NCBI GenBank assembly: GCA_012961645.1
Contig: DTYY01000073.1
Span: 1-5,111, forward strand
DNA: 5,111 bases
DNA from: Methanosarcinales archaeon
GTDB taxonomy: Archaea; Halobacteriota; Methanosarcinia; Methanosarcinales; Methanogasteraceae
Reading direction: 5' to 3'
Each line of letters starts with the position of its first letter. The first letter of the stretch is position 1. Of the stretch, positions 1,517 through 5,044 are shown in pieces. The position numbers and the translations under genes are program-made. Under the pieces are notes generated by a model that saw only the letters and a list, made by a program, of their open reading frames with translations, searched no databases and was not told the DNA's origin.

Positions 1517-1545
1517 TGCGTCCGATCCGGGTAAAGCGATGATAG

Positions 1546-1570
1546 GAAACGTTTAAATGTTTGTATATAC
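1546..1570 (+). promoter_or_regulatory. Candidate archaeal promoter for the oxidoreductase gene
   Basis: A purine-rich GGAAAC (BRE-like) is followed by GTTTAAATG and then TTGTATATAC, two overlapping TATA candidates in the most AT-rich part of the intergenic region. Start sites 22-27 bases downstream would fall near 1580-1595, giving a leader of 40-55 bases to the ATG at 1635. The same promoter could serve the downstream corrin genes, since no terminator-like T-run is visible between them. Confidence 0.45.
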
Positions 1571-1623
1571 CGTATCAGTACAGAAACTCCAGTGCCCAAA
1601 CGAGCATTGTTGAATGAGTAAGC

Positions 1624-1629
1624 GAGGGT
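1624..1629 (+). promoter_or_regulatory. Shine-Dalgarno site that favours the ATG at 1635
   Basis: GAGGGT lies five bases before the ATG at 1635. The earlier in-frame ATG at 1614 has no purine-rich site in front of it (GCATTGTTGA). The later start removes seven residues that are not part of the family's conserved core. Confidence 0.5.
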
Positions 1630-1634
1630 ATGAA

Positions 1635-2480
1635 ATGATAAACAATGGAAAGTATCCATCACTCTCTTCAAAGCAGACCCTTAATCATATCACGCTTCCG
1701 AATAGGATCGTGTTTCCGCCGTTGAATGTGAACTATGCAAATACCGATGGAACGGTCTCGGATAAACTCATGAAATTCTATACCGATCTTGCGGACGGAG
1801 GCTGCGGGCTGATCATCACAGGCGCGGCGGCGGTATCGTATGACAGCATTGCATCTGACCGGGGCATGCGGATAGATCATGATGGATGTGTGCCAGGGCT
1901 TAAACGTCTCTTCAGCGGGATATCAAGGCGCGGAAGCATACCAGGCATACAGTTGATACATTGTGGAAGGCAGGCAGCAAACAGTGCCACAGGGTATGAT
2001 CTGCTTGCGCCAAGTGCAATCCCATGTCCTGTGATGTCCAGGTTGGATCCCGCGTACGGGGTAAGGGAGATGACACCGGATGACATCAGAATGGTGCGAA
2101 GTGATTTTATCGATGCTGCTTTAAGGGCAGCGGACAGCGGAGCCGGTGTTGTGGAAATGCATGCCGCTCATGGATATCTGTTAAACGAGTTCCTCTCCCC
2201 GTATTCGAACCACCGCAGCGATGGATACGGGGGAGATGCATACAACCGTGCCAGACTGGTCACAGAGATCATCGAGGGCATCCGCGATGATATCAGCCGG
2301 ATTGCGATCAGCGTGAGGGTCAGCGGAGATGAGTTCGTGGATGGGGGGCTGACGCCACCAGACTTTGAGGAGATCATCCCGCTCTTTGAAGATGCCGGAA
2401 TGGATATGCTGAATGTATCGGCAGGAGTATACGAATCGTTCCACCACGATCGCTTGGAGAGATGCCGCATATCGGCATAG
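1635..2480 (+). CDS. OYE-family FMN oxidoreductase, N-terminal part (frame broken at 3' end)
   Basis: This is the first six or so strands of an Old Yellow Enzyme TIM barrel, an FMN enzyme reducing activated C=C bonds or related substrates, of the FadH/TMADH/BaiCD branch. Numbering from the alternative ATG at 1614: LTLPNRIVFPPLN-like strand 1 is at about 25-40, IQLIHCGRQA at 112-121, and VEMHAAHGYLLNEFLSP at 180-196. The latter contains the paired active-site histidines H183 and H186 and Y188. NHRSDGYGGD is at 199-208 and the FMN-contacting Arg in SVRVSGDEF at 233-241. Homology continues to NVSAGVYESFHH, then the frame runs into unrelated residues (DRLERCRISA) and a TAG. The missing barrel strands 7-8 lie in the next open frame, overlapping by 19 bases, so the two pieces are best read as one gene with a frameshift. 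The start at 1635 is preferred over 1614 because of the upstream GAGGGT. The natural substrate is unknown. Confidence 0.85.
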   Translation: MINNGKYPSLSSKQTLNHITLPNRIVFPPLNVNYANTDGTVSDKLMKFYTDLADGGCGLIITGAAAVSYDSIASDRGMRIDHDGCVPGLKRLFSGISRRGSIPGIQLIHCGRQAANSATGYDLLAPSAIPCPVMSRLDPAYGVREMTPDDIRMVRSDFIDAALRAADSGAGVVEMHAAHGYLLNEFLSPYSNHRSDGYGGDAYNRARLVTEIIEGIRDDISRIAISVRVSGDEFVDGGLTPPDFEEIIPLFEDAGMDMLNVSAGVYESFHHDRLERCRISA

Positions 2481-3298
2481 CCGCGGAGTTGAAGAGGTTT
2501 GCAACCGTGCCGGTATGTGCTGTCGGTAGCATATTCTCGATCGATCAAGCAGAATCGATCATATCATCAGGAAAATCCGATCTTGTTGCGATGGGCAGGG
2601 CGCAGGTGGCAGATCCTGAGATCGTGAAGAAATCGCTCGCAGGGCATGAATCAGATATCATGGAATGTACAGGATGCAACGACTGCGTGTTCTGGACAAC
2701 CGGCGATTCGCAGATGTACTGCAGTGTCAACCCGGCATTGAGAAAGAGAGACGAAGGGATAGTAAATGATGAATTATATGAATTATATAGAGCAATCACT
2801 GAGATTGATGTTTTTTCTCCGCCCAGGGTTTATATCGAAGAGTTGTTGAAGGTGATATGTGACAATCTCAAGTATCGTTTTGGCACTGTAATCGAGGTGG
2901 ACGATCATGGGAAAGGGTGGCTGATCGCATCATACAATGCACCAGAAAATTATATCGAGCAGGTGCATCGAGTGACAGCACCGGTCCTTTCGAGTCCGTC
3001 AGGAGAAGCCATCGAACTTCGCAGGATTGTTGTGGTGCGTAATGCTTTATCAGATCCACGTCTTGCGCCCTGGTGTGGGATCGTCCGATCTTATAACCTA
3101 AAAACCATCATCTGGATGCCGCTTTTTGGCAGAAATCGTGTATATGGAACTTACGTTTTATATGACACGCGGATACGCGACACATCAGAAGAAGAGTTGC
3201 AGTTCCTTGAGAGGATTAGAGTGATGATATCAATCGCACTTACGAGTAATCAATATCTTGATCGACTGATCCGGAAAAGAAGAGAACTCGAAGGGTGA
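2462..3298 (+). CDS. OYE C-terminal part with 4Fe-4S motif fused to a GAF-like domain
   Basis: Residues 1-66 complete the OYE barrel: VPVCAVGSI (16-24) is strand 7 and DLVAMGRAQVADPE (40-53) is the FMN-phosphate loop with GR at 45-46. Four cysteines follow, C69-x2-C72-x2-C75-x11-C87, then SVNPAL. This matches the 4Fe-4S site of trimethylamine dehydrogenase and dienoyl-CoA reductase. Those relatives then continue into an FAD/NAD(P) module. Here the frame goes through a charged linker (93-118) into a GAF-like domain at about 119-270, recognised by DPRLAPW, IIWMPLFGRNRVYGTYVLYDTR, the EEELQFLERI helix and a final helix ending RKRRELEG. The ligand is unknown; C205 is the only cysteine in the second half of the domain. 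The ATG at 2462 has GGAG only two bases upstream, so it is a poor independent start. The segment is probably the 3' portion of the preceding gene after a one-base loss. Confidence 0.8.
   Translation: MPHIGIAAELKRFATVPVCAVGSIFSIDQAESIISSGKSDLVAMGRAQVADPEIVKKSLAGHESDIMECTGCNDCVFWTTGDSQMYCSVNPALRKRDEGIVNDELYELYRAITEIDVFSPPRVYIEELLKVICDNLKYRFGTVIEVDDHGKGWLIASYNAPENYIEQVHRVTAPVLSSPSGEAIELRRIVVVRNALSDPRLAPWCGIVRSYNLKTIIWMPLFGRNRVYGTYVLYDTRIRDTSEEELQFLERIRVMISIALTSNQYLDRLIRKRRELEG
2771..2788 (+). repeat. Tandem 9-base repeat at the OYE/GAF junction
   Basis: GAATTATAT occurs twice in direct succession and encodes ELYELY in the linker between the cluster-binding end of the OYE part and the GAF-like domain. 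The second copy with the following AG also resembles an archaeal TATA element (AATTATATAG). Use as an internal promoter is possible but unsupported otherwise. Confidence 0.6.
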
Positions 3299-3989: not shown

Positions 3990-4706
3990 ATGTCAGAGAA
4001 GGTCTATTTTGTCGGAGCAGGACCAGGCGACCCGAAGCTGATCACACTTCGCGGAAAGGAACTGCTCGAAGAAGCCGATCTCGTGATCTACACCGGTTCG
4101 CTCGTTGACCCGGCGGTCGCCGCATTCGGTGGAGGGGCGGTCATCAACAGCCACGGGCTCACCCTCGATGAGCTTACCGATCTCATGGTGGGTGCAATCA
4201 GCGACGGAAAAAAAGTTGTCAGGCTGCACACAGGGGACCCATCGCTCTATGGCGCGATATGCGAGCAGATTGCGGCGCTCAAAAGGCACAACATCGATTT
4301 TGAGATCATTCCGGGCGTATCATCCGTCTTTGCTGCATCAGCTGCTCTCAAGACACAGCTCACGCTCTCAGGAATTACTGAGACCCTGATCATCACCCGC
4401 CCGGCTGGTGAGACGCTCGAGGCAGACTCGATACGGGAACTTTCAAGGCACGGCGCAACGATGGCGATATTTCTGGGCGCAAGCAAGATCGCGAGGATCA
4501 TGGAAGAGGTCGAGTACCCTCCAGCGACACCTGTTGCTGTTGTCTACAGGGCATCGTGGCAGGATGAGCAGATCATCAGGGGCACGGTCGCAGATATTGC
4601 AGAGAAGGTCGAATCAGCCGGAATAGAGAGATCGGCAATGATCCTGATCGGCGATGTCGTGCATCCAAAAAGTTTCGGGAGGTCACACCTATACGGATCG
4701 CAGTGA
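3990..4706 (+). CDS. cbiF: Cobalt-precorrin-4 C11-methyltransferase
   Basis: A second tetrapyrrole methylase, transferring a methyl group from SAM to C11 of cobalt-precorrin-4 and giving cobalt-precorrin-5A. VYFVGAGPGDPKLITLRG (5-22) is the N-terminal signature. ADLVIYTGSLVDP (29-41) and the HGLTLDEL stretch (55-62) are CbiF/CobM-specific. VRLHTGDPSLYGA (77-89) is the best-known CbiF loop. IIPGVSSVFAASAAL (106-120), TLIITRPAGETL (132-143) and AIFLGASKI (159-167) complete the fold, and the protein ends RSHLYGSQ as usual for the family. The length of 238 residues is close to the normal 250. The start lies seven bases after cbiL with no strong Shine-Dalgarno site; the preceding ATG at 3983 is out of frame. 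Its stop overlaps the downstream CbiG-like gene, implying translational coupling. Confidence 0.95.
   Translation: MSEKVYFVGAGPGDPKLITLRGKELLEEADLVIYTGSLVDPAVAAFGGGAVINSHGLTLDELTDLMVGAISDGKKVVRLHTGDPSLYGAICEQIAALKRHNIDFEIIPGVSSVFAASAALKTQLTLSGITETLIITRPAGETLEADSIRELSRHGATMAIFLGASKIARIMEEVEYPPATPVAVVYRASWQDEQIIRGTVADIAEKVESAGIERSAMILIGDVVHPKSFGRSHLYGSQ
4678..4683 (+). promoter_or_regulatory. Strong Shine-Dalgarno GGAGGT inside the end of cbiF
   Basis: GGAGGT is a full match to the archaeal anti-Shine-Dalgarno sequence and is the best ribosome binding site in the window. It lies seven bases before an ATA codon at 4691 but 19 bases before the GTG at 4703. It therefore bears directly on where the CbiG-like protein begins. 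Confidence 0.55.
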
Positions 4707-5044
4707 TATCTTTCAAGCGAAACCATGCGGTTGCAGAGCGCGTCACAGATCTAGTTGGCGGCGAGGTGATCTGGTACTCTGAATCTGCGTTTGAGGGTGC
4801 GTTTTCCAAGGATTCCGGGTACGATGCGATCATCGCGATCATGTCCTGCGGGATTGCTGTTCGGAAGATTGCGCCACTTCTGCGGAGTAAATGGACCGAT
4901 CCTGCTGTTGTGGTGGTCGATTGTGCGCTTCGGCACGCGATTGCGGTCGTTGGTGGGCATCATGGTGCAAACGAGGTCGCAAGAAGGCTCGAGGTTCTGG
5001 GTGCAGGTCCAGTGATCACGAATGTAAGCGAGGTTGTGAAGTGA
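4703..5044 (+). CDS. cbiG: Short CbiG-like protein (cobalt-precorrin-5A hydrolase N-terminal domain)
   Basis: CbiG opens the delta-lactone of cobalt-precorrin-5A and releases acetaldehyde. The 113 residues carry the conserved N-terminal domain: IAIMSCGIAVRKIAPLLRSK (44-63), TDPAVVVVD (65-73) and GGHHGANEVARRL (84-96), then PVITNVSEVVK and a TGA. Typical CbiG is about 300 or more residues with a central and a C-terminal domain; neither is seen here, and the 67 bases downstream do not encode them in any single clear frame. It is either a stand-alone N-terminal domain with a partner elsewhere or a truncated gene. The GTG at 4703 overlaps the cbiF stop (GTGA). An ATA at 4691 would add the four residues (M)RIA, giving RIAVISF, a more complete first beta-strand, and is better placed behind GGAGGT. 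The CbiG homology is firm; catalytic competence is uncertain. Confidence 0.85.
   Translation: MISFKRNHAVAERVTDLVGGEVIWYSESAFEGAFSKDSGYDAIIAIMSCGIAVRKIAPLLRSKWTDPAVVVVDCALRHAIAVVGGHHGANEVARRLEVLGAGPVITNVSEVVK

Follow-up and report, generated by a model that had tools for sequence, protein, structure and literature searches.

The window, by which we mean the whole 5111-base stretch of DNA analysed here, carries a split copy of a gene fusion that joins an Old Yellow Enzyme (OYE), bearing a predicted [4Fe-4S] site, to a GAF domain. The reading that we favour, with modest confidence, is that the GAF domain reads a signal which the OYE produces, uses up or passes on. As judged from sequence comparison, the fusion is a conserved enzyme/sensor gene pair that was joined and lost its output, and not a domain replacement, because most relatives have two genes, and in these the GAF domain is constant while the outputs vary. 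The enzyme and the sensor are likely to work together, since OYE and GAF are neighbouring separate genes in most relatives examined. Linkage, co-inheritance and fusion suggested that the enzyme feeds the GAF domain. No published description of an OYE/GAF pair was found in the literature searched, most subscription papers lying outside it; the single article retrieved for an OYE together with a GAF domain, PMC2781859, concerns phototaxis.

The window corresponds to C73, one of the 362 contigs of a genome of 1.66 Mb that is 82% complete. The N-terminal 272 codons of the OYE barrel were located at positions 1614-2430 of the forward strand (PF00724, 1.4e-48, residues 23-269). This assignment was consistent with the alignment to the gene of a sister genome (G001) and with the N-terminus of a metagenomic protein, P0002, the start point of which corresponds to an in-frame Met at position 1635. 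The C-terminal part of the barrel was located at 2432-2665 on the same strand (PF00724, residues 9-58 of frame 2462; G001 alignment). The first 272 codons lie in another frame (1614-2480, running out of frame at its end) because 13 bases that are present in G001 are missing near position 2430. DNA alignment placed the site of the missing bases, which shifts the frame, at 2430-2431, and its exact position is ambiguous owing to a short repeat there. At the matching place, the G001 DNA carries the eight bases ACGGATCG twice, 13 bases apart, so that a slippage deletion is the likely origin of the loss. An assembly error could also be the source of the gap. In the initial annotation, frame 2462-3298 was taken as one stretch running from the end of the barrel through four cysteines into a GAF domain. 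The frame is open over 278 residues and has this order, but no protein begins at 2462, where the ATG encodes an internal barrel Met (GEMPH) and is not a gene start. Because of the 13-base gap, the window encodes no uninterrupted OYE-4Fe4S-GAF protein. Its own fused copy is probably inactive.

An intact copy was found in G001, which belongs to the same genus. It is an OYE-4Fe4S-GAF protein of 571 residues on an 8001-base contig (locus L034), the translation of which is identical to that of JAUWHQ010000115.1, "Methanosarcinales archaeon isolate CSMAG_2272". Among the 120 proteins listed in a protein search, 86 had OYE alone, 25 had GAF without OYE, six had OYE and FAD/NAD(P) domains, and three combined PF00724 with GAF. 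The three were P0003 (564 aa), which is on a contig of 8001 bases and thus is G001's own, and the JGI proteins P0002 and P0004. P0004 was 88% identical over the region and its N-terminus was missing, and P0002 was without residues 174-217, which hold HAAHGYLL. Four fused copies are known, and only that of G001 was seen whole, the window copy being frame-shifted and P0002 and P0004 incomplete. Thus, the architecture first described from the window recurred in G001 and in the metagenomic proteins P0002 and P0004, although the window copy itself is interrupted. The fusion was not matched in G002-G004 and was present in two of the five genus genomes searched (completeness 72-87%).

The junction was examined by comparing the ends of separate OYEs with the starts of separate GAF proteins. 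The linker KRDEGIV at 2744-2764 (forward strand) corresponded to the former gene boundary. The separate OYE P0028 ends in SVNPALKREVR and the separate GAF protein P0005 begins with MDELYELHK, and both are on equal-sized contigs. The fused junction reads SVNPALKKRGGGRAKDEVYELYR in G001 and SVNPALRKRDEGIVNDELYELYR in the window. The start codon of the separate GAF gene aligned with the junction, which indicated that the GAF domain derives from the next gene. We infer that the two genes were joined via loss of the intervening stop and start. A one-genome assembly slip was ruled out as the source of the junction, since G001, P0002 and P0004 have it in common, the latter two being from JGI.

Both barrel pieces of the window exceeded the PF00724 cut-off of 27 bits: 1614-2477 scored 166.4 bits and frame 2462 scored 28.5 bits. 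The HAAHGYLL segment was found in the window and in G001. FMN binding and ene-reduction by the OYE are predicted. The putative [4Fe-4S] site, C-x2-C-x2-C-x11-C, is located at 2666-2722 on the forward strand. The initial assignment of C69, C72, C75 and C87 as a TMADH-type set was borne out, as the equivalent residues of G001 aligned with the cysteines of the cluster in trimethylamine dehydrogenase (TMADH) and 2-naphthoyl-CoA reductase (NCR). The four cysteines correspond to the motif of Fe-S OYEs, and a [4Fe-4S] cluster is therefore predicted. No FAD/ADP or NAD(P) domain was detected by Pfam after the cluster in the window frame, where GAF alone follows, or in P0001-P0004. The OYE part of the fused model was mostly confident, and its fold matched YqjM-type OYEs, NCR, DCR, histamine dehydrogenase and TMADH. 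Where 97% or more of the 86 proteins share an OYE residue, the window differed at 1 of 66 positions (F81S), G001 at 0 of 69 and P0004 at 0 of 62.

The GAF domain was assigned to 2765-3295 on the forward strand (PF13185, 9.3e-13; PF01590, 3e-11), with the Pfam core at 2837-3241. The matches covered residues 126-260 of frame 2462 and gave 49 bits for GAF_2 (PF13185; cut-off 28.6) and 44.4 bits for GAF (PF01590; cut-off 22.4), in agreement with the initial suggestion of a GAF-like domain. No output domain was found between the GAF domain and the stop at 3296-3298, and HisKA and HATPase_c were absent by Pfam from the window frame and from P0002-P0004. The G001 GAF domain folded alone gave a pLDDT of 88, and solved GAF domains were its top Foldseek matches; by sequence, no solved relative was found at E 0.001 or better. 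In the whole-fusion model, the pLDDT of the GAF half was under 50. At 25 positions conserved across 50 separate-gene GAF domains, G001 deviated at two, and P0004 and the window at one each. The Cys of the LCD/ITC stretch was missing in 6 of 33 alignment rows, so that the idea of a cofactor depending on a GAF cysteine as its ligand was rejected.

To place the fusion among its relatives, 33 stretches (L034-L066) were fetched with a query holding both the OYE and GAF parts. They contained 26 distinct OYE loci, 24 of which had the cysteine motif. Among these 24 short OYE loci, one was fused, 20 had a GAF-headed gene directly downstream, and three had no GAF (L053, L057 and L058). In the two-gene loci, the GAF match began 9-60 bases past the OYE stop. 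The fusion as a general form did not hold, since a stop separated the cluster from the GAF domain in 20 of 24 homologous loci, and the fusion is therefore a local event. Since L034-L066 came from a two-part query, a second search was performed with the OYE alone against 392 genomes of the phylum. Besides the window, seven loci were found at 43% identity or more, and six of them adjoin a GAF gene, which is downstream in G000:C295, G292, G024 and G025 and divergent in G350 and G199. The seventh, in G144, had no adjacent GAF. In the remaining genomes, all OYEs were more distant; of these genomes, G203 was the one that had a GAF match as well, more than 6 kb away. L074 carried a divergent GAF beside an OYE truncated by the contig end. 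GAF domains of the pair type were found without an OYE in the fetched stretches L061-L066 (6 of 6) and in L073, L075, L076 and L077, some of these last four being cut by contig ends. The window's genome itself holds an unfused second copy (L035 1189-6047, G000:C295), with an OYE and two GAF-PAS-kinase genes in a row.

Comparison by eye of 86 OYE-only proteins with 50 GAF proteins gave ten OYE/GAF pairs with longest contigs of equal size, one of them being the pair of Desulfallas thermosapovorans (P0068 and P0016). For these pairs, a shared contig was deduced from size and adjacency was not seen. The GAF kinase alone was seen for Sporotomaculum syntrophicum and Desulfofarcimen acetoxidans. The sources of the GAF kinase also include a Methanosarcinaceae archaeon and, for the second type, Candidatus Methanoperedens. 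PF00724 was found in none of the 120 matches listed, out of 136, to the Methanoperedens-type kinase GAF. The OYE and GAF trees were correlated over 24 loci (r 0.97, 0 of 5000 permutations as high) and within the 19 second-type loci (r 0.86). Within the five first-type loci, no correlation was observed (r -0.16, 3116 of 5000 permutations as high). First-type pairs occurred in families f1, f2 and f10. Since f2 and f10 hold the second type too, OYE and GAF gene appear to be passed on as a pair.

The GAF domain came first in each of the ten partner proteins scanned. The continuation was HisKA and HATPase in seven, one of which is the second GAF kinase of C295, STAS in one (G011), PAS plus HTH_5 in one (G082) and PAS only in one (G199). 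In the G350 partner, of 271 residues, GAF was the sole match. The enzyme and the GAF domain are thus constant and the output domain varies (kinase, STAS or HTH), with no output domain in the fused forms. In L038 (G011:C190, 5063-7113) and L007, the OYE was followed by a GAF-STAS protein, with an RsbU_N/kinase protein nearby. Further on, small ORFs resembled, by eye, a STAS protein and an RsbW-like ATPase. These surroundings look like a partner-switching style of output. The GRAS domain is best known from plants; in L042 of G090, a GRAS match (10452-11582; PF03514, 1.8e-41) was found two genes downstream of an OYE/GAF-kinase pair.

These arrangements bear on the origin of the fusion. The initial annotation had placed the GAF domain in the position of an FAD/NAD(P) module. 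This did not survive the comparison, because the 86 OYE-only proteins (321-397 aa) lack the module without any fusion, and replacement of an FAD/NAD(P) domain by GAF was ruled out on this ground. The six proteins with OYE and FAD/NAD(P) domains (518-667 aa) were the weakest matches among the 120 listed.

In the mechanism that we propose, the OYE would be an externally fed FMN/[4Fe-4S] reductase, both cofactors being predicted. An outside electron supply is suggested by the lack of an FAD/NAD(P) domain after the cluster, and electrons would enter singly from ferredoxin or a small flavoprotein. The FMN of the OYE would then reduce an activated double bond. The GAF domain would bind the substrate or product of the OYE, or would sense the redox state of the enzyme through contact. 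In the two-gene systems, an output of the kinase, STAS or HTH kind would be set by GAF. Once fused and without an output, GAF would feed back on the OYE or would be in the course of being lost. An external donor is plausible and was hinted at by a flavoprotein gene directly upstream of the OYE in seven loci. In these loci, all of family f5, the OYE ORF is preceded at a distance of 3-87 bases by a gene that belongs to the same sequence cluster throughout and carries C-x2-C-x2-C-x6-C. Two of the seven upstream genes were scanned, and both were FMN_red (PF03358). L058 is one of the seven flavoprotein-type loci, yet it has no GAF.

If the enzyme feeds the sensor, the pair would be a new kind of signalling input in anaerobes (several archaeal families and Desulfallas), and the natural fusion would name which two parts belong together. 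The cultured Desulfallas thermosapovorans, which has both proteins, makes the pair testable. A tentative further step is that the [4Fe-4S] OYE and a dedicated GAF domain might form an input module, a flavoenzyme-coupled sensor in which the OYE acts as the receptor or generates the signal; we regard this as possible rather than likely. In that case, methane-oxidising archaea and sulfate-reducing Desulfotomaculia would wire the redox state of an electron carrier, or an unsaturated metabolite, into signalling. The targets would be kinases, STAS partner-switching or HTH regulators, and one archaeal genus would have condensed the module into one protein.

Selection on the fused gene was estimated by comparing the window with G001. 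The dN/dS values were 0.33 for the OYE N part, 0.22 for the C part and 0.38 for the linker and GAF; those of neighbouring genes were 0.12 (cbiL), 0.11 (cbiF), 0.15 (cbiG) and 0.09 (acs). Departure from neutrality was found for the OYE N part (Fisher, 3e-5) and for GAF (2e-4), both with approximate site counts. The fused gene is, on these estimates, constrained after fusion, because dN/dS was below 1 and the N part and GAF were non-neutral, and it is less constrained than its neighbours, because its dN/dS was above theirs. These values bear on another explanation, according to which the fusion is a decaying relic: the stop between co-transcribed genes was lost, the kinase part is gone, and the joined gene is eroding without function. 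The broken frame of the window, the P0002 protein without its active-site segment, the dN/dS of 0.22-0.38 compared with 0.09-0.15 in the acs and cbi genes and the presence in only two of the five genus genomes are consistent with decay. Of the three fused copies, the window also had the most residue changes of its own (C part and GAF: 23 compared with 17 and 11; N part: 11 compared with 7 and 0). However, dN/dS stayed below 1 for both OYE and GAF, the strongly conserved OYE positions were almost unchanged in the window and unchanged in G001, and the G001 copy is intact. Erosion without function is, on balance, a rather unlikely account.

A low dS also pointed to movement of the fused gene. The dS was 0.17-0.29 for the fused gene and 0.44-0.58 for the neighbours. 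A block at 1524-3278 (forward strand) was 89.6% identical to the G001 contig by blastn (G001:C237, L036). The window flanks are acs and cbiL-cbiF-cbiG. The surroundings differ in G001, where acs is on C46, the cbi genes are on C56 and the fusion is on C237. The low dS, the sharp block and the different surroundings suggested that a cassette was probably transferred between close species after their split. At 4703-5044 of the window, the cbiG ORF comprises the N-terminal part only (113 aa, matching positions 7-113 of a 290-position model). G001 has a stretch matching the window cbiG and a second partial copy nearby.

Regulators often adjoin the genes they control, and regulator/target pairs are often divergent. 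The linkage could accordingly mean that the OYE operon is transcribed under the control of the GAF kinase in response to some cellular signal, with no direct talk between the two proteins and an accidental fusion. The two divergent pairs (G350 and G199) would suit such an arrangement. However, 20 of the 24 loci have a co-directional GAF gene that begins only tens of bases after the OYE stop, a DNA-binding domain was found in one scanned partner only, and the fusion retains GAF and drops the output. We consider transcriptional control of this kind improbable. It is very doubtful that GAF in the fused protein gates the passage of electrons through the cluster in response to a ligand. In favour of such a gate, only a short linker separates GAF from the cluster, and the protein has no other domain for electron entry. 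Against it, 20 of 24 loci encode GAF in a protein of its own that continues into further sequence, and a two-domain arrangement was not obtained from the fused model, given its poorly modelled GAF half.

The reading of an enzyme that supplies its own sensor was compared with known systems. As in TMADH, histamine dehydrogenase, 2,4-dienoyl-CoA reductase and NCR, an OYE barrel is followed by a four-Cys cluster site. Unlike the TMADH/NCR group, there are no FAD/ADP and NAD(P) domains past the cluster, and the fused form has GAF. YqjM-type (thermophilic-like) OYEs were the best barrel matches by sequence and fold, but the solved ones stop before the cluster site and have neither the cysteine set nor GAF. 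The GAF domain is homologous to that of GAF-headed archaeal and bacterial histidine kinases, with up to 71% identity over the GAF region (P0005). In contrast to these kinases, PAS, HisKA and HATPase are all absent from the fused protein. A ferredoxin-type donor has been proposed for NCR (PMC6502838, Nat Commun 2019). In the report on bilirubin reductase, short-form BilR is an OYE without C-terminal flavin and NADP(H) domains that works with a separate flavodoxin-like protein, BilS, and the operon partners given are BilS and the MarR regulator BilQ (PMC10769871, Nat Microbiol 2024). The fused and short OYEs resemble short BilR in having no flavin and NADP(H) domains, and the f5 upstream flavoprotein resembles BilS. 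The pair differs from the reported BilR operon in having a GAF signalling protein as the partner. The window pieces gave 103.2 and 64.7 bits (64.7 for the C part) with NCBIfam bili_reduct_N, far under the cut-off of 425 bits.

A variant of the cluster site was observed among the OYE-only proteins. In 11 of the 86, the second cluster cysteine was replaced with Asp (C-x2-D-x2-C; P0054, P0060, P0063, P0081, P0082, P0083, P0089, P0098, P0106, P0108 and P0111), and P0038 had Gly at this position. Asp-ligated, labile clusters occur in some ferredoxins, and on this basis the Asp-type OYE cluster may be a redox-sensing cluster.
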